Source of the DNA: Planctomycetota bacterium
Lineage (GTDB): Bacteria > Planctomycetota > PUPC01 > JACPCR01
Length of the DNA stretch: 17,072 nt
Direction: 5' to 3'
Assembly: GCA_030740295.1 (NCBI GenBank)
Contig: JASLXP010000540.1
Coordinates: 1-17,072 of the forward strand
Part shown: positions 2,427-15,092 of the stretch, piece by piece
How the letters are laid out: the number at the start of each line of letters is the position of its first letter
How positions within the stretch are numbered: position 1 is the first letter of the stretch
The notes under the pieces: generated by a model
The model's database searches: none
Seen by the model: the letters and a program-made list of their open reading frames with translations, nothing else
Told to the model about the DNA's origin: nothing
Program-made: the position numbers and the translations under genes

Positions 2427-3175
2427 TAAATCCCCCACAGCCCCCACATGTCGTTCGGTATTTCGAATCTGGCTTCATACTGACCGGGACAGGAATACCT
2501 GGCGAACAGGCCCACTCTCGGGCTGGGATTGCAGTTGACCGAGCCGGTGTGAAACAGCCAACTGTGCCAGAAAATCACGTCTCCGGCCTTTCCTGTAAAT
2601 TCGCGGGGTTCAATGTCCTTCATGAATTGTTTCCAGTTCCTGGGATCAGAATCGTACCCGGGTTCCCACCTGAGGAAGCTGCCGTTGATCTTTTCGGGAT
2701 TATCACGGAAGTAATCGCGGGCGTTCAGGTGGCTTCCAGGCCAATAGGTGAAACAGCCCCCATGACTATCCACATCAGAAAGGTAGGCAGTGATGGCCAG
2801 CATGAACGGCCACCACCTCGCCCTCGGATACCCGTCCAGGTGACCCGACGCAGGGAAGTCCCATTCTGCGTCCTGATTCGGCCAGGTGATCGCTGCCGTG
2901 CCGCCGCTTCCGCCTCTGAATTTGCTTTTGCCCAACTGATGCACGGCCCGCAGAATTTCCGGCTGCTCGTCGAAGTGAGTCTCCGGTGACTTTTCATCGT
3001 ACACAGGGTCCGGTATCTCTTTCTGTTTTTCCCAGTTCGCAGGATTCTGTAGATCGCCGTAATGATCGGTGAATCTCTTCTGAAGATTCGTAATGAAATC
3101 ACTGTCCATCATATCCCGGACAATGAGATAGCCGTTATCTTTGAAGGACTGTGCCTGTTCTTTAGAGAAGATCAT
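2426..3175 (-). CDS. Phytanoyl-CoA dioxygenase (PhyH) family Fe(II)/2-oxoglutarate oxygenase
   Basis: The protein is 249 aa and cytoplasmic, with no signal peptide. It opens with the typical PhyH pattern (E-Q-A-Q-S-F-K-D-N-G-Y-L-I-V-R). The iron-binding facial triad is visible: His112 and Asp114 in GHLDG, and His209 in the distal FWHSWLFHTGSVN segment. Arg220 is placed to bind 2-oxoglutarate. WPGSH at about 145-149 is also typical. The family hydroxylates small organic substrates; nothing here identifies which. The ATG at 3175 lacks a clear Shine-Dalgarno. Its stop overlaps the next gene's start by one base, so the two are probably co-transcribed. It is divergent from the pseudopilin gene, with no more than 200 bp between plausible starts. 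PhyH paralogues are abundant in Lentisphaerae, Planctomycetes and Poribacteria. Confidence 0.88.
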   Translation of the reverse strand: MIFSKEQAQSFKDNGYLIVRDMMDSDFITNLQKRFTDHYGDLQNPANWEKQKEIPDPVYDEKSPETHFDEQPEILRAVHQLGKSKFRGGSGGTAAITWPNQDAEWDFPASGHLDGYPRARWWPFMLAITAYLSDVDSHGGCFTYWPGSHLNARDYFRDNPEKINGSFLRWEPGYDSDPRNWKQFMKDIEPREFTGKAGDVIFWHSWLFHTGSVNCNPSPRVGLFARYSCPGQYEARFEIPNDMWGLWGI

Positions 3176-3265
3176 TGGGAGAATGGGGTTAATGGTTGCG
3201 AATCCGAGTTTGAACTTTACTCAATTTTTCATGACCCTGAAAGGAATGGAAAACGTGGACGCCCC

Positions 3266-3403
3266 GTGGCCACAGGCTGCCAGCCTGTCAGCCAAAGAAC
3301 TATTCGATCAGAAGGCTCGAGTGGCACAGAGCGTTGCCCACTCGGTGTTTGCACAAGAAACAGAAGAGACCGGGGTGACAGGCTGCTGGCAGCCTGAGGC
3401 CAC
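3266..3403. repeat. REPIN-like paired inverted repeat with an internal hairpin
   Basis: Two GC-rich palindromic units lie in opposite orientation: 3266-3290 (GTGGCCACAGGCTGCCAGCC...) and 3375-3403, whose reverse complement reads GTGGCCTCAGGCTGCCAGCAGCC.... The left unit also folds on itself (GGCTGCCAGCC). Between them, 3319-3343 is a further hairpin with GAGTGG and CCACTC arms. This is the arrangement of REP doublets (REPINs). It lies at the 5' side of the pseudopilin ORF and, depending on the true start, within its coding region. No target-site duplication was found. Copy number in the genome cannot be seen from this window. Confidence 0.6.
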
Positions 3404-4193
3404 AAGGCTCTTCAAGAAGAATCATGTACCTCGCTGCCGCGGAGCGTCAGCGCTACTTGGCTGCCGCGCGTTCACGGTTATCGAGCTCACTGTCACGCTG
3501 ACGATTCTGGCGGTCATTTTCCTTGCGGTGCATGGAGTCCTTGCTCGCACGCTTTCTTCGAAACAGAAAGCCGAGAAGGCCAATCGCCGGGCGACCATTT
3601 CGGATGCCATCCTTCGACGCATGGCCGCGGACCTGCGCAGCGCATTTATGGCCTCTACTCACGAGGTCTGCTTCAAAGGTGATTCCGAGAGCCTGCATTT
3701 TGTCACCAGCGTGAACTCCCTGGCCAAAGTGGGACAGCAGGCTTCGGCATTCAACAGCGTCGGATACGTACTCGGCAAGAACGAAAAGTCGAGTTATGTC
3801 TTCCGGCTGTTCCGCCGGGAATCCCGCGGTGAGGTCGATTTGGACGAAGGAGAGTATCGAGAGCTGTATGCTTACGCCGGCAGCATCAAGTTTGAGTATT
3901 TGCAGAGAATGGACGGAGAGGACGACCAGGATGCGGTTCAGGTCAAAGAAGATTGGGACAGCATCCGTGATCGCGGCTTACCGATTGCCGTTCAGATGGA
4001 AATGACGCTCTTCTTTCCGGACGGTCAGTCTGCGAATTCTCAGGACACTTTTGCCGAGATGGATGGCAGCCGATACCGCGCAGTTTTCAGGATTCCGGCC
4101 GGCGGGCATTTCATCCCTCATCCGGACTTAAAAGATGATGAAGAGCCGGCAGCAAGCGATGCAACCAAAGGATCGGGACAAAGTTCCAACTGA
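3375..4193 (+). CDS. Orphan GspJ-like prepilin/minor pseudopilin
   Basis: From GTG at 3375 the product is about 272 aa. A type IV prepilin site is clear: A32 | F33-T-V-I-E37, followed by a 20-residue hydrophobic helix (LTVTLTILAVIFLAVHGVLA). Glu5 of the mature protein is conserved, but the -1 residue is Ala instead of Gly. The C-terminal half carries the GspJ hallmark WDS...LPIAV (about 194-206), followed by a beta-strand and an acidic, Asp/Glu-rich tail. GspJ is a minor pseudopilin at the tip of the type II secretion pseudopilus. No gspG, H, I or K neighbour is present. The start is uncertain: the frame stays open upstream through the REPIN-like repeat, with ATGs at 3231 and 3246, but these would give an improbably long leader. 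GTG 3375 has only a weak purine-rich stretch before it. The repeat may have replaced the original start. Confidence 0.72.
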   Translation: MTGCWQPEATRLFKKNHVPRCRGASALLGCRAFTVIELTVTLTILAVIFLAVHGVLARTLSSKQKAEKANRRATISDAILRRMAADLRSAFMASTHEVCFKGDSESLHFVTSVNSLAKVGQQASAFNSVGYVLGKNEKSSYVFRLFRRESRGEVDLDEGEYRELYAYAGSIKFEYLQRMDGEDDQDAVQVKEDWDSIRDRGLPIAVQMEMTLFFPDGQSANSQDTFAEMDGSRYRAVFRIPAGGHFIPHPDLKDDEEPAASDATKGSGQSSN

Positions 4194-7138: not shown

Positions 7139-8668
7139 TTACGCCTCCATCTCCTCTTTCTTCAAGTGCATCGTTCCGCCGCGTTCGCCTTTCTTTGCGG
7201 CCCAGGCCAGGTACATACCCGTGGAGTGCTGAACGGCGAGCACGAGCAGCTTCGGGTCCTCGAAATTCTCCCGCGCCATGGGCGTGCCGTAGAAGGACAT
7301 CAGGCCGAAGAGCAGGTTGCTCGTGTCGATTCCCATAATTTCGTGCGCCCGGATCAGGGCGTGCGCGGGTGAGGAGACTGCGCGAGCGGTTTCAGGTTGG
7401 CCATGATTGAATGGCAGGCCGCCGTCAGCACACTGCTCAGCGATCGTACGGTTTACGGCCGCAATGGACGCTTCCATTAGCCGGCCTCGCAACGCCACGT
7501 ATTTCGGCTCGTCCGGCAGGGCGTCGTACAGTGCGGCAAACGCGCGCAGGTTAACGCCGTGGTAGCCCATTCTTGAGTTGTGCCCGGCCCAGCCGCCCCA
7601 GGCGCACTGGTGGTCGAGAGGCCAGGCAAGCATCCTGGTATTGAGCTGCGGTTCGATGAGGTCGAGCCCTCCGGTCACCTTCGCGTACCGGGCAGCGGCC
7701 CAGATGAGAAACGTGTTGTAGTTGTAGTTCCACGGATGAGGCTCGGCCGCGCTCACGTATTGTGCTACCCGTTCTGCCGCGACCAGGTAACGTTGGTCTT
7801 CAAAGTGGATATACCCCTCGACGAGAGCTGCACCACCGAGCCCGGTCTCGTAAAACGGATCATCGATCGTACCGTCTGGCTTCTGAATGGAGGCCAGGAA
7901 ATCACAGGCCGCGCGGGCACGATCCAGAAACACCGGCTCAGGCATCACCTCGTGCGCGCCCAGGTAAGCGAACACTCGCTGCGACGATGAGCGAATGCGG
8001 AGCGGTGTTTCACTGTTGGCCGTGCTGGTGCGCCACTGCCCCTCGCCGAGATACATCTCCTCGGATTCATCGTGGAGCCTCATGAATTGGCACTTCATCT
8101 CCTCCAGCGCAGGGCGGTCAAACGTGTGCCCGGCCGGCAGCAGGTGGTCGCGAGGAACGGGCTTATCCCACGGGCCGGGGTCAAACGCACCTCCTTCAAT
8201 CAGCCTTACATCGCCGATGAAAAGAGCTCCCATGTGATAGCGAGTAAATATCTTCACGAAGGTGTGTCGCCAGTACTTGCCCGTCCGAAACACGAACTCC
8301 TTGCGCACGAAACCGTTCTCAGGCGGATCCCAAATTCGCATCCGCCTGTCCGGTTCGGCATCCTCTTCCGGGTTACATTCACCGAAAAGGTAGGCGCTCC
8401 CATCGCCCGTGCGAAAGTCCCTGTTGTGCATCCGGAGGGACAGCGTGTAGACCGTGTCTGGTTTGGTCAGAACCGTCTGCGTGAGCATCACACCCTCTTT
8501 TTCCCAGTCATCGACGCGTGCCGGGCTCTTTATCTTGAGGCAGTCGAGCCCGTGGATACATGCCGCACTCACTCGGGTCTGGTTGCCGGCCTCGCGCGGT
8601 GCGAGCGTCCAGTGCCCTAGCACACCGATGCTGTCCAACTCAAGGGCGCCGTTCTGTAGAAGATTCAT
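7139..8668 (-). CDS. CBM-like beta-sandwich plus alpha/alpha-toroid protein, probable carbohydrate-active enzyme
   Basis: The 509-aa product lacks a signal peptide. Residues about 1-160 start NLLQNGALE and end LFIGDVRLIEGG, the pattern of a galactose-binding-like/CBM4-9-type jelly roll. Residues about 225-500 are helix-rich with repeated W/Y/H motifs (NYNYNTFLIWAAARYAKVTGG; WAGHNSRMGYHGVNLRAFAALYDALP), suggesting an (alpha/alpha)n toroid as in polysaccharide lyases and unsaturated-glucuronyl hydrolases. I cannot assign a CAZy family or catalytic residues with confidence. The ATG overlaps the stop of a tiny upstream ORF as ATGA, suggesting translational coupling. With no export signal it may act on imported oligosaccharides, or its true N-terminus may have been lost with the upstream gene. 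Confidence 0.7.
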   Translation of the reverse strand: MNLLQNGALELDSIGVLGHWTLAPREAGNQTRVSAACIHGLDCLKIKSPARVDDWEKEGVMLTQTVLTKPDTVYTLSLRMHNRDFRTGDGSAYLFGECNPEEDAEPDRRMRIWDPPENGFVRKEFVFRTGKYWRHTFVKIFTRYHMGALFIGDVRLIEGGAFDPGPWDKPVPRDHLLPAGHTFDRPALEEMKCQFMRLHDESEEMYLGEGQWRTSTANSETPLRIRSSSQRVFAYLGAHEVMPEPVFLDRARAACDFLASIQKPDGTIDDPFYETGLGGAALVEGYIHFEDQRYLVAAERVAQYVSAAEPHPWNYNYNTFLIWAAARYAKVTGGLDLIEPQLNTRMLAWPLDHQCAWGGWAGHNSRMGYHGVNLRAFAALYDALPDEPKYVALRGRLMEASIAAVNRTIAEQCADGGLPFNHGQPETARAVSSPAHALIRAHEIMGIDTSNLLFGLMSFYGTPMARENFEDPKLLVLAVQHSTGMYLAWAAKKGERGGTMHLKKEEMEA

Positions 8669-10793: not shown

Positions 10794-12818
10794 TCATGAC
10801 TTCTTTCTCAAGGCGGCTTTGATTCGGTTCATATCCGCATCCGGTACCAGTAATTCCCTCTCGTGTAAAGGACGCAATACTTGCTCCCGAATTTTCCTGA
10901 CCAGCGAAAGAGACGGCTTCCTTTCGACGGCGGCGAACAGGCATGGGCACTGAGTGCGGGGCTTGAAGAAGACATCTGCCATCCAGGGGAGGTTCTTTTC
11001 CTTTTTCGTGGCGCCTTCGTTGAGCATTCTGTTCTTGCGTATTTCCACCCCGGTGAGGTCGTCGGGCCAGACGCAGAGGAGGCGGGCCTTGCCTTTGCGG
11101 GCGACAAAGGCATGTGAATCGATCTTTTCGATGGTGACGTCTTTGTAGAAATGCCAGCGCTGGCAGTGTGGTGTTTCGATTCGCGGGCCTTTGAAGACGC
11201 TGTCGAGCAGCAGCCAGCCGTAGTTGTGGACGAACAGGATTTCACGCTGGTGACGATTGGAGGTATAGCCGTCGTGCGCGGCCACGACGAACATGTGCTC
11301 GTCATCCGCCTGGTATTTGCAGACCTTTGCTGCCGGTGGAAAACAGCCATAGTTGACGCTGAAGAGGATGTCGTCACGGATCGGTTCGGAGTAGGCCAGG
11401 ACCGTGTTGTGGGAGGTCATGTTGTAATGCCAGCCGCGGCCCAGAGAGCCCATCTCGTAGCCCACTCTCGCGTCCGGCTCGCCGATCATGGCTTCGCCCC
11501 TGGCGGCAATGTTGAGAGAAAGCATGTCGTGGTGCGCGTGGCAGATCAGACCAAGGACGTTGGTGCTCATGACCATGTAGTTCGAGTCGCTCTTCCATCC
11601 GTCCCTCGCGACAAGATAGCCGGCTTTGTCATAGAAAATGGACTTGGGCGGCAGGGCCTTCTTGTTCGCCGTCTTATCCTTTGATAGGCCAAGCGCATCG
11701 AGTATGGCGGCGCTCGTTGCGCAGCCGAAGAACTGCTTTCCAGTCTCCAGCAGGTCTTTGGCGAAGAGCCCGCCGCTGTCGCCGAAATCAGGCAGGTTGC
11801 CGTCCGGCATCACCATCGAGCCGCGCATGGCATAACTCCTGATGAAGCGCTCTCTCAGTTTGCCGCGCACGACGTAGGTGTTGTTTCGCTTCGCCAGGTC
11901 GAAAGGCTTGATCATCATCTCCTCCAGGACGGCGCCCGTCGAATACCAGATGGAGTGTTCGCTGTATCCGCCGTCCTCATAAAAATCGCGCTGCAGGTGC
12001 TCGCGGATCACCCGCCTTCCGCGCTGGAACATGGGTTTCATGTCCTGAAACTCAGGCAGCATGAGGGCAAAAATGAACGGCGAGATGCCGCGCTCGAAAA
12101 GGTGATGATTGTATGGCACGTAAGGATCGTCATCGAAATTACGGAACTGCCTGGCTCTGAACCAGAGCGAGCGGATGAGTTGGAAAGTAAGCTCCGGCGG
12201 AACTCCTTCCTCGTAAGGCACGTCCGTATGCAGCAGGCCGATCCAGGCAAGCGCGCCCCAGGCCGCATTCATGCTGTCGTCAGGATTCCAGGCAAACGGG
12301 CACTCCCGCAGGAACTTGTCCAGGAACTCCACATACTTGTCCAGATAAGCCTGCTCTCCGGTGACCATTCGGGCGGTGGCCAGGCAGGTCAGGAATCCCA
12401 TTCGCGATAAAGGCGAGGGAAGTCGCCCCCCGGCATGGAGTTCGGGCAGCCTCTCCATTCCGGGGCCAAGGTCGAGTTCGAGGTCTTTACTATCAAGCAT
12501 TATGTTTTCCAGCATTTTGTCGGCATGGACGATGGTTTCTTCCGCGGTAATTGCCCTCCCCTGGATGCGGATGGTGCCGGTGGGTTTCTCGCCCGCTTTG
12601 CAGGAAGCACCTCGTGCCTCGAAAAGCCAATGAGGCTTGGTGCGCGTTCTGAAATGTTTCACCAGGGCGACCCTTGCCGCTTCGGGCCGCTTATCCTTGA
12701 CCGCCCTTTCAACGCCTTTCATGCCAGGCACTGCGAAATTCAAAACAGCGAAGAAGTCTTCATCGGTGATCCGGCGTTCGTCAGTCGGAAAGTTGTTCAC
12801 GCTCATGTTGTGCTTCAC
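10794..12818 (-). CDS. Heparinase II/III-family polysaccharide lyase
   Basis: The 674-aa product has no signal peptide. It comprises an N-terminal (alpha/alpha) toroid (about 20-380) and a C-terminal heparinase II/III-like beta-sandwich domain (about 395-640). Candidate catalytic residues are visible: Asn237-His238-His239 (YNHHLFERG), Tyr285 in GGYSEHSIWYSTG, and His427/His429/His430 in ICHAHHDMLSLNIAARGE. SHNTV at 469-473 is also typical of the superfamily (PL8/12/15/17/21 relatives). It would cleave uronate-containing polysaccharide by beta-elimination; heparin, alginate or another glycan cannot be distinguished. The GTG start at 12818 overlaps the stop of the FAD-oxidoreductase stub as GTGA, indicating an ancestral operon; ATG at 12806 is an alternative. 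The mobile element just upstream probably separates it from its original promoter. It converges with the beta-helix gene, 23 bp away. Confidence 0.85.
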   Translation of the reverse strand: MKHNMSVNNFPTDERRITDEDFFAVLNFAVPGMKGVERAVKDKRPEAARVALVKHFRTRTKPHWLFEARGASCKAGEKPTGTIRIQGRAITAEETIVHADKMLENIMLDSKDLELDLGPGMERLPELHAGGRLPSPLSRMGFLTCLATARMVTGEQAYLDKYVEFLDKFLRECPFAWNPDDSMNAAWGALAWIGLLHTDVPYEEGVPPELTFQLIRSLWFRARQFRNFDDDPYVPYNHHLFERGISPFIFALMLPEFQDMKPMFQRGRRVIREHLQRDFYEDGGYSEHSIWYSTGAVLEEMMIKPFDLAKRNNTYVVRGKLRERFIRSYAMRGSMVMPDGNLPDFGDSGGLFAKDLLETGKQFFGCATSAAILDALGLSKDKTANKKALPPKSIFYDKAGYLVARDGWKSDSNYMVMSTNVLGLICHAHHDMLSLNIAARGEAMIGEPDARVGYEMGSLGRGWHYNMTSHNTVLAYSEPIRDDILFSVNYGCFPPAAKVCKYQADDEHMFVVAAHDGYTSNRHQREILFVHNYGWLLLDSVFKGPRIETPHCQRWHFYKDVTIEKIDSHAFVARKGKARLLCVWPDDLTGVEIRKNRMLNEGATKKEKNLPWMADVFFKPRTQCPCLFAAVERKPSLSLVRKIREQVLRPLHERELLVPDADMNRIKAALRKKS

Positions 12819-12896
12819 AACCCCCTTTGCGTCAATCCTTCAGCCAAGCCCAGTTCGGCCAGGCGCTTCTCATCACCAAGGTAGAAGCCCTCGGAC

Positions 12897-12901
12897 AGCA
12901 G
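12897..12901. repeat. Left target-site duplication AGCAG of the MITE-like element
   Basis: AGCAG lies immediately outside the left terminal inverted repeat and is repeated at 14696-14700 immediately outside the right one. Collapsing the two copies restores the interrupted oxidoreductase frame, which confirms it as a true target duplication. Confidence 0.88.
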
Positions 12902-12918
12902 CAGAACTCCGGACATCG

Positions 12919-12941
12919 GCCTCTAAACAGGGCTTAGAGGC
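12919..12941. repeat. Subterminal hairpin at the left end of the MITE-like element
   Basis: GCCTCTAA at 12919-12926 pairs with TTAGAGGC at 12934-12941 around a 7-nt loop, an 8-bp stem beginning 1 bp inside the terminal repeat. It is absent at the other end of the element. It may be a transposase-recognition structure or a weak terminator; neither is proven. Confidence 0.6.
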
Positions 12942-13000
12942 GTTTTCGAAAGGTTTTGCGTCCTCAAATCTATGGTACAGTTTTTCATCTGATCAGGTCC

Positions 13001-13246
13001 TTCTTTATGCCGAAGGCATTACGCCTTACAGCCCAGGGTTGCGAGGCTTTGCGAGCTACCCTGGGTTCCGAGGTGGAGCATCTTCTACCCCGAAGGGGTT
13101 GCGCCCATATGATCTGTGGACGCGGACAGACTACATATGGGCGTAACCCCTTCGGGGTAAGAGGTACTCGGAGCCCAGTGACCCAGGGTAGCTCGCTGAG
13201 GCTCGCGAACCCTGGGCTGTAAGGCGTAATGCCTTCGGCATAAAGA
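13001..13246. repeat. ~246-bp nested palindrome (composite hairpin element)
   Basis: The left arm (13001-13111) and right arm (13134-13246) are inverted copies. The outer ~38 bp are perfectly complementary (CTTTATGCCGAAGGCATTAC...), as are nearly all of the inner ~26 bp (TACCCCGAAGGGGTT.CGCCC.ATATG), with a more divergent middle. The loop at 13112-13133 itself pairs (TCTGT/ACAGA). Each arm also contains smaller self-hairpins: ATGCC-GAA-GGCAT, CCCAGGGT...ACCCTGGG and ACCCC-GAA-GGGGT. Similar GAAGGC/CCCAGGG/CCCCGAAGGGG repeats seem familiar to me from PVC-type genomes. Complementarity at the right arm continues by one base across the IS3 insertion (to 14564). Confidence 0.88.
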
Positions 13247-13310
13247 TGACCTTCCCCCGAAAAACCGGGCACCTCATTGGCTAAACTAAGCATAAGAAAG
13301 GAGTCCATTG

Positions 13311-13628
13311 ATGAGTAAACAACGAAGACGACGATACGATTCGGAGTTCAAGCGGAGAGCGGTCGAGTTCGTTCTCGCTGGCGATAAGAGCGTGCCTCAG
13401 ATAGCCACCGACCTTGGCATCGAACTGAGCAGTCTGTACCGCTGGAAGCGTGAGTACCTGGCCGGGCACGACGAAGCCCCCCCTGACGTCTCAGCTACGG
13501 CCACAGAGCTGGACGAGGAGCTCCGGCGTATACGTGGAGAGCTGGCATCAGTACGGACACAGAGGGACGTTTTTAAAAAAGCCTTGGGCATTTTCTCCCA
13601 GACAGACAACGGAGGTACGAATTCATGA
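13311..13628 (+). CDS. IS3-family transposase OrfA (helix-turn-helix protein)
   Basis: The 105-aa product has a basic N-terminus (MSKQRRRRYDSEFKRRAVEF) and a helix-turn-helix (about residues 9-45: AVEFVLAGDKSVPQIATDLGIELSSLYRWKREY), the HTH_Tnp_1 family that binds IS ends. A coiled-coil/leucine-zipper-like segment follows (about 58-90: ATELDEELRRIRGELASVRTQRDVFKKAL). ATG 13311 is preferred over TTG 13308 because AAAGGAG at 13297-13303 is 7 nt upstream. An A6 run at 13575-13580 lies at the first point where the orfB frame is open upstream of its own ATG, so a -1 slip here could produce an OrfAB fusion. The zero-frame phasing (AAA AAA GCC) is not the textbook A-AAA-AAG. Confidence 0.93.
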   Translation: MSKQRRRRYDSEFKRRAVEFVLAGDKSVPQIATDLGIELSSLYRWKREYLAGHDEAPPDVSATATELDEELRRIRGELASVRTQRDVFKKALGIFSQTDNGGTNS

Positions 13629-14521
13629 AAGCCCATGAACATGAATTCCCAGTTGTCGCTATGTGCCAAGCTCTGGGAGTAACCCGGAGCAGTTACTATG
13701 AATACCTGAAGGGCTCGACGGGGCCAAGAGCTGCAGAGAACGAAGGCTTGAAAGACCATATCCAGCAGAGCTTCGAGGCCAGTAAGAACCGCTACGGTAG
13801 TCCTCGAATCACAGAAGAGCTGAGACGAAGAGGTGTTCGATGCAGCAAGAATCGGGTTGCCCGGCTGATGTCTCAGATGGGCATCAAAGCTGCCCGAACG
13901 AAGCGCTACGTCCCTCACACGACAGATTCCAATCACCACTATCCAGTTGCTCCCAACAATCAGGAGGCATTGGAAGGTGTGCGGAATATCAACCAGGTAT
14001 GGGTAGCCGACATCACATACATCCGTACGAATGAAGGATGGCTGTACCTGGCGGCCGTGATGGACGCTTACAGCCGTAAGATTGTCGGATGGTCGCTTCG
14101 AGAGCATCTTCGTACTGAGCTGGTCGTTGAAGCTCTGAGGAAAGCACTGATTGAACGAACGCCACCTACCGGCCTCGTTCATCATTCTGACCGGGGCGTT
14201 CAATATGCCAGCAACGAATATCGAACCATGCTCCACAAGCACCGGATAGCTCCGAGCATGAGCCGAAGAGGCAACTGTTATGACAACGCAGCCATGGAGA
14301 GTTTCTTCGGCACTCTGAAAACAGAACTGAACCAAACGCAAACCTTCGAAACCAAAAGGAGCGCTAGCAGAGCCATATTCGAATACATTGAAATCTTCTA
14401 TAACAGGAAGCGACTTCATTCCTCGCTGGGATACCTCACTCCCCTTCAATTCGAAGAGGAAAACAAAGGAAGGATTCAACATCAGGTAACCGTTAGGGGG
14501 GAAGAATCAGAAACAGAATAA
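13625..14521 (+). CDS. IS3-family transposase OrfB (DDE integrase core)
   Basis: The 298-aa product has an N-terminal HTH_21 region (about 40-95: HIQQSFEASKNRYGSPRITE...) and an rve integrase core. The DDE residues are visible: Asp in VWVADITYI, Asp in VHHSDRGVQY, and Glu in NCYDNAAMESFFGTLK, with the usual K/R downstream and the C-terminal YNRKRLHSSLGYLTP signature. It catalyses strand transfer of the IS. ATG overlaps the orfA stop (ATGA) and has its own GGAGG at 13611-13615, so it can be made by reinitiation as well as by frameshift fusion. No internal stop or deletion is seen. Confidence 0.95.
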   Translation: MKAHEHEFPVVAMCQALGVTRSSYYEYLKGSTGPRAAENEGLKDHIQQSFEASKNRYGSPRITEELRRRGVRCSKNRVARLMSQMGIKAARTKRYVPHTTDSNHHYPVAPNNQEALEGVRNINQVWVADITYIRTNEGWLYLAAVMDAYSRKIVGWSLREHLRTELVVEALRKALIERTPPTGLVHHSDRGVQYASNEYRTMLHKHRIAPSMSRRGNCYDNAAMESFFGTLKTELNQTQTFETKRSASRAIFEYIEIFYNRKRLHSSLGYLTPLQFEEENKGRIQHQVTVRGEESETE

Positions 14522-14563
14522 ATAAGCCACATTACTGTCCGGCTTTTTGGGTAAGGCTCAAGA

Positions 14564-14679
14564 AATGTGAGTAAAGCACAGGATTTCAACCTGGGGTTAG
14601 TAGGAACGACCGCAAGCCCCGGAGCAGAGACTTGTCCAATCATTTGATGGACGTGTAATGTAACATTTTTGACAAGGGT
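14564..14679. other. Right-hand part of the MITE-like element, non-coding
   Basis: This segment lies between the nested IS and the right terminal repeat. The minus-strand frame running through it is continuous with the oxidoreductase remnant only because no stop occurs. It translates to residues unrelated to that family and runs on into the IS end, so I treat it as element DNA, not a gene. Confidence 0.6.
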
Positions 14680-14846
14680 GATGTCCGGAGTTCTGAGCAG
14701 GGACTGCTGGAGATTCTTCACGTCCAGGTCGCGGGGCTCGATGCCTTCGCTGGCGGCCAAAGCTGCCGCAAGTCCGGTGGCTTGACCAAAGTTCATCATC
14801 TGGCCTCGTGCCCGAAAGCTCGGCTCGTGGCCGTGGTCGGTACCTT

Positions 14847-15092
14847 AGAGTCTTACTGATGGAAGTTTGCGTCGCGTGCGCGTACTCTTTCAACAGTGTG
14901 GCAACGAATGAAAGCACGCAACGAATAGAACAATATTCTGGATTCGTTGCGTGGCTTTATTCGTTGCCCCTTGAAATTTGGTTGCGGCCGAAGGCAGCCG
15001 TAGGAGAAACGGTGGGCGACGTGCTTCGGCAGAGCACGGGGCGTGGCCGGGTCGCAGCTCGTGGTAGAGGGTATTGAACGGAGGACTGGAAG
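14847..15092. repeat. Intergenic repeat region with a 69-bp hairpin and a dispersed-repeat copy
   Basis: Positions 14900-14926 and 14942-14968 are imperfect inverted arms (about 23 of 27 bases). Each contains two CAACGAAT or ATTCGTTG units, and the loop also pairs (AGAA/TTCT). Positions 14984-15006 repeat the tract at 48-70. Both lie between the truncated 5' edge of the oxidoreductase remnant and the phosphatase start. GGAGG at 15080-15084 is the phosphatase ribosome-binding site. No gene is seen here. Confidence 0.65.

Follow-up and report, generated by a model that had tools for sequence, protein, structure and literature searches.

A probable nested MITE-like insertion, with a long palindrome and an IS3-family insertion sequence, in an oxidoreductase gene remnant

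Bacterial MITEs, which are non-autonomous derivatives of insertion sequences (ISs), are short, have inverted ends and a target duplication, and contain no recognised ORF. ISs of the IS3 family have overlapping OrfA and OrfB frames, an rve/DDE core and imperfect inverted ends that start with TG, and they usually duplicate 3–4 bp of the target. PMC3852290 requires an autonomous partner if a short candidate is to count as a true element. REP- and REPIN-type palindromes (PMC3116915, PMC3733652) are dispersed and strongly palindromic, and the abstract of PMC3733652 gives 20–40 bp as the length of REPs. IS1397, ISKpn1 and ISPsy8 are reported in PMC1525189 as IS3-family elements that target palindromic repeats.

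The window analysed here, the whole stretch of 17,072 nucleotides of DNA, contains an element with terminal inverted repeats (TIRs) that shares all of the MITE traits above and differs from bacterial MITEs in that no second copy or parent element was found in the collections searched. In view of what PMC3852290 requires, we therefore call it MITE-like rather than a MITE family. Inside it lies a palindrome that is dispersed and strongly palindromic like the REPs, whereas its length of ~250 bp far exceeds the 20–40 bp stated in the abstract of PMC3733652. The IS that adjoins this palindrome has the frames, core and ends of the IS3 family and a 3-bp duplication. Its position recalls IS1397, ISKpn1 and ISPsy8 as presented in PMC1525189, but here a single insertion at the base of a ~250-bp palindrome is involved, from which a preference cannot be shown.

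Table 1. Coordinates of the features of the locus, as positions in the window
Feature	Position	Strand	Remarks
Heparinase II/III-like ORF, downstream	10794..12818	-	Candidate start GTG 12816-12818
Oxidoreductase tail beyond the insertion	12815..12901	-	Stop TGA 12815-12817 overlaps GTG of the next ORF
Target duplication AGCAG, left copy	12897..12901	none	Read directly
Left TIR, CAGAACTCCGGACATC	12902..12917	+	16 bp perfect; 21 bp at 90% complementarity
Left arm of TIR element	12902..12995	none	No coding similarity in the frame tested
Long palindrome, dispersed repeat	12996..13246	none	Perfect 39-bp outer arms 13002-13040/13208-13246, plus inner arms
IS duplication AGA, left copy	13244..13246	none	Also the final 3 bp of the palindrome arm
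IS3-family IS, 1314 bp	13247..14560	+	Imperfect inverted ends TGACCTTCCCCC.../TGAGCCTTACCC...
OrfA of the IS	13311..13628	+	HTH_Tnp_1; NCBIfam IS3 profile 50.6 bits, below whole-protein cut-off of 160
OrfB of the IS	13625..14521	+	rve/DDE integrase core; NCBIfam IS3 family transposase 351 bits, cut-off 160
IS duplication AGA, right copy	14561..14563	none	3 bp
Right arm of TIR element	14564..14695	none	No coding similarity in the frame tested
Right TIR	14680..14695	-	Perfect 16-bp partner of the left end
Target duplication AGCAG, right copy	14696..14700	none	Read directly
FAD_oxidored C-terminal remnant	14701..14844	-	Model positions 369-416 of 416; upstream part missing

Inverted ends and the interrupted oxidoreductase frame

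The 16-bp inverted ends with AGCAG outside each, described in the earlier note, were confirmed both by reading and by inverted-repeat analysis (Table 1). Perfect 16-bp inverted pairs at most 3 kb apart did not occur in any of 60 dinucleotide shuffles of the window. The real window contains 27 perfect 16-mer inverted pairs, 25 of which belong to the long palindrome; the remaining two are the TIR pair and a pair at 7816/9625. The latter lies inside two ORFs, has unequal flanks and is a coincidence that serves as a useful caution: because a second such pair is present in the window, a 16-bp pair alone is not decisive. The TIR pair becomes persuasive only together with the frame evidence and the 5-bp duplication, as equal 5-bp flanks were found at random position pairs with a frequency of 0.0013. 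Inverted pairs of 10 bp with equal 5-bp flanks occurred at a mean of 0.07 per dinucleotide shuffle of the window (60 shuffles).

Joining of the two flanks with one copy of AGCAG resulted in an open frame of 76 residues. The Pfam match does not extend past the junction, so that Pfam does not test this join. The joined C-terminus was compared with a profile of nine natural oxidoreductases, hand-picked for organism spread among the matches listed (40 of 134 plasmid records, the Cupriavidus query's own record included). The joined form scored 45.7 bits, the interrupted form 34.7 bits and the part before the junction 36.0 bits; shuffled tails reached 45.7 bits in 0/200 cases (best 44.5) and, in a larger run, in 1/1000 (46.7). 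Because the joined query itself had retrieved the Cupriavidus protein (E 0.08), this protein was left out as a control. The corresponding scores were then 43.5, 32.4 and 33.6 bits, with 0/1000 shuffles reaching the joined form (best 41.5). The alignment to the Cupriavidus oxidoreductase crosses the junction with 15/30 residues identical, while the interrupted form has 9/16 identical residues up to the junction. A protein comparison of the kind that the earlier note had suggested came out in favour of the rejoined C-terminus. The best match of the joined C-terminus among solved structures had an E of 0.41, and its search in 97 genomes from the phylum of an unrelated MAG gave no match, an uninformative empty result. 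Taken together, the profile and alignment comparisons moderately support the predicted in-frame join of the oxidoreductase tail.

The claim that excision restores an oxidoreductase frame stood in part: the 76-residue in-frame join fits homologues, but what it yields is the C-terminal ~76 codons and no restored gene. Upstream of the remnant there is a stop codon (14845-14847) as well as sequence that does not resemble FAD oxidoreductases, and a six-frame search of the window revealed no other piece of the gene above threshold. As only the last ~76 codons are left, removal of the element restores neither a gene nor an enzyme. The front of the gene is lost, either before or since the insertion. 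At its other end, the proposed GTGA overlap between the tail and the candidate start of the heparinase-like ORF is present.

The long palindrome and the nested IS

When folded as single-stranded DNA, the segment 12990-13260 had a z of -21 relative to 200 shuffles; the RNA fold of the left arm of the TIR element was ordinary (z -0.44). Translations of all or part of the palindrome were identified in P0122, P0123, P0124, P0125 and P0127, besides the two alleles of this locus (5/6 candidates returned by one protein search and 6/599 by another). P0122 and P0125 have a common right flank and, from their translations, seem to represent a single locus; the right flanks of P0123 and P0127 differ from it, and P0124 ends before the right flank. 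Judged by these predicted proteins, the palindrome is present in at least three other contexts, probably four. Each of the five proteins shares 1–4 four-residue words with the element arms when all frames are considered, and these words are isolated, versus 46 words in P0121 and 43 in P0126. Since the palindrome occurs with other flanks and translations of the arms are missing there, we regard it as an independent dispersed repeat; a dispersed palindrome in several contexts, as expected of a REP-type repeat, was thus seen at the protein level, the level at which its copies are known.

Three right flanks, including that of P0121, agree for two residues beyond the shared core and that of P0127 does not. 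This agreement places the boundary near 12996 and leaves perhaps ~226 bp for the TIR element without IS and palindrome, although the palindrome has only approximate inner boundaries and that of the left arm, set from palindrome copies with other flanks, is uncertain by several bases or more. Some left flanks of the palindrome copies are alike for several residues, and the repeat may therefore exceed the palindrome in length. No useful match to the palindrome was obtained in plasmids, phages or viral contigs. At ~12950-12980 one frame of the left arm contains the words KVLR and LRPQI, which are shared with palindrome translations and reflect either chance or a decayed palindrome fragment.

The IS is located exactly at the base of the palindrome. 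Among the matches listed (8000 matched), 117 of 120 OrfB relatives were 52–61% identical, the closest being P0001 (98%), the partial P0025 (78%) and P0002 (72%); in viral contigs, distant relatives of the IS were found at 6 loci with 30–53% identity. OrfA and OrfB overlap in an ATGA at 13625-13628, and the OrfB frame is open from 13577, adjoining an A6 run (13575-13580) that we take not to be in the classical -1 frameshift register. The two frames could be joined by frameshifting or by re-initiation. At its C-terminus (~14490-14521) OrfB reads EESETE where the 98% identical P0001 has KNQK, likely a one-base difference in a G run, as judged by eye. We also considered the whole stretch as one IS3 element and rejected this possibility, because within that stretch the IS is bounded by ends and a duplication of its own.

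An IS-free form of the locus was found in P0121, a 164-aa metagenomic protein from one 1,138-bp contig that starts within the remnant of the oxidoreductase, spans the right arm and continues into the palindrome. It is identical to the translation of the locus minus exactly 1,317 bp, i.e. the IS and one AGA. When 12 x 15 = 180 joins were tried, P0121 was given only by five equivalent 1,317-bp removals. P0126 is the IS-bearing form encoded by the window, and its 90%-identity cluster stands for 16 contigs, a count of contigs and not of assemblies. Judged at the protein level, the IS-free and IS-bearing states are both in public data.

Probable layered history and rival readings

The insertion reported in the earlier note proved to be real, with inverted ends, a 5-bp duplication, a nested IS and an in-frame join that fits natural homologues. 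The computed length of the IS-free core is 477 bp, in agreement with the ~477 bp proposed, and the further statement that this core lacks a transposase was borne out in that no Pfam match was found in one translated frame per arm. Inverted repeats, a target duplication and a length below ~500 bp (477 bp here) without a recognised transposase ORF are all MITE traits. We consider it very probable that the locus is a nested MITE-like insertion in an oxidoreductase remnant, made up of the TIR element, the palindrome and the IS3-family IS. An FAD-dependent oxidoreductase gene upstream of the heparinase-like gene would have received a non-autonomous element with 16-bp ends, and the duplication suggests that a transposase acting in trans and cutting with a 5-bp stagger had moved it. 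The ~250-bp REP-like palindrome would have entered the TIR element before or after its landing. Later, the IS would have inserted into the palindrome base and duplicated AGA, a step that the IS-free allele supports at the protein level. Loss of the 5' part of the oxidoreductase gene, which left the last ~76 codons, would have been a separate event. The TIR element most likely has no role other than that of mobile DNA.

Several other readings were weighed against this layered insertion. The 477-bp core could instead be a single MITE with the palindrome as its interior, moving along with it. The earlier note likewise took the ~477-bp core as one possible MITE, and such a reading would agree with the position of the palindrome inside the TIRs and with the lack of a visible duplication around it. 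Copies of the palindrome that carry other right flanks, of which there are at least three, lack translations of the arms, which makes a single MITE quite unlikely; the TIR-bounded insertion stands, but the core is probably composite, ~250 bp of it being the palindrome that has other flanks elsewhere. The locus might also have decayed from a larger, autonomous transposon that made 5-bp duplications, and thus be a single-copy relic that never multiplied as a MITE. Other copies were indeed missing from the collections searched, but these searches had poor reach, and no transposase similarity was detected in one frame per arm, so that we regard a relic as a doubtful though real possibility.

Coincidence or an assembly artefact might be suspected from the other perfect 16-bp inverted pair that the window holds by chance, and from the left TIR junction, which was absent from every second sequence found. 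Such an origin is extremely unlikely given the rarity of equal 5-bp flanks at random pairs and a frame through the junction that fits homologues; moreover, the right-hand TIR junction is also present, at the protein level, in P0121 and the P0126 cluster (16 contigs). Beyond the layered insertion itself, it is possible but unlikely that an undescribed transposon family of an uncultured lineage is marked by the ends CAGAACTCCGGACATC and their 5-bp duplications, and that the nested IS targets the bases of long dispersed palindromes. If the ends do define a family, they offer a handle on an unknown transposase. The 'undescribed MITE family' of the earlier note is unproven, as no second copy of either arm was found in the collections searched. 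The locus is a clean case of layered insertion with a public IS-free allele, which makes it useful for tracing IS activity in an uncultured population. When inverted repeats are the only delimiter, as the locus also illustrates, a MITE-like element and a dispersed palindrome unrelated to it can be taken as one.

Searches for related elements and other repeats in the window

Copies and a parent element were sought with exact patterns or in distant collections, which have poor reach into uncultured lineages. An autonomous parent transposon with the same ends was not found in the collections searched. IS1634-like transposases, which we take to be a family with 5-bp duplications, were considered as a candidate for the TIR element. 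The longer exact end pattern matched once in the genome_contigs collection; this match sits in a SecD/SecF-type gene without a partner in the 8 kb covered and was rejected as a relative. The same pattern had no match in viral contigs, where the exact 16-mer end matched four times (that of L004 in a 496-aa ORF, those of L005 and L006 in the same stretch and that of L007 in a 187-residue open frame). All four were rejected because the DNA examined contained no inverted partner, even when 4 mismatches were allowed. Neither arm matched in plasmids, in which a full-length search matched the IS alone among the matches listed (20 of 61 records), and phages gave no match to the arms. Among the 6 matches of the protein search, none but P0121 and P0126, the two alleles of this locus, contained the right arm. 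Alleles lacking the TIR element were not encountered, and the empty state of the site is based solely on homologues. Rfam gave no matches. The titles and abstract openings covered by the literature search included no publication on these ends, which does not show their absence from print.

Two further repeats were observed elsewhere in the window. A 27-bp palindrome (89% complementary, 15 bp between arms) is located at 14900-14968, between the oxidoreductase remnant and a phosphoesterase ORF, and may be another dispersed repeat and be related to the loss of the front of the oxidoreductase gene. The other is a 24-bp inverted repeat (88%) at 3261-3408 in the 5' part of ORF 3141-4193, whose weak T2SSJ and N_methyl matches, below cut-off, are pilin-like; it may be a further inserted repeat, lying in front of a pilin-like protein.
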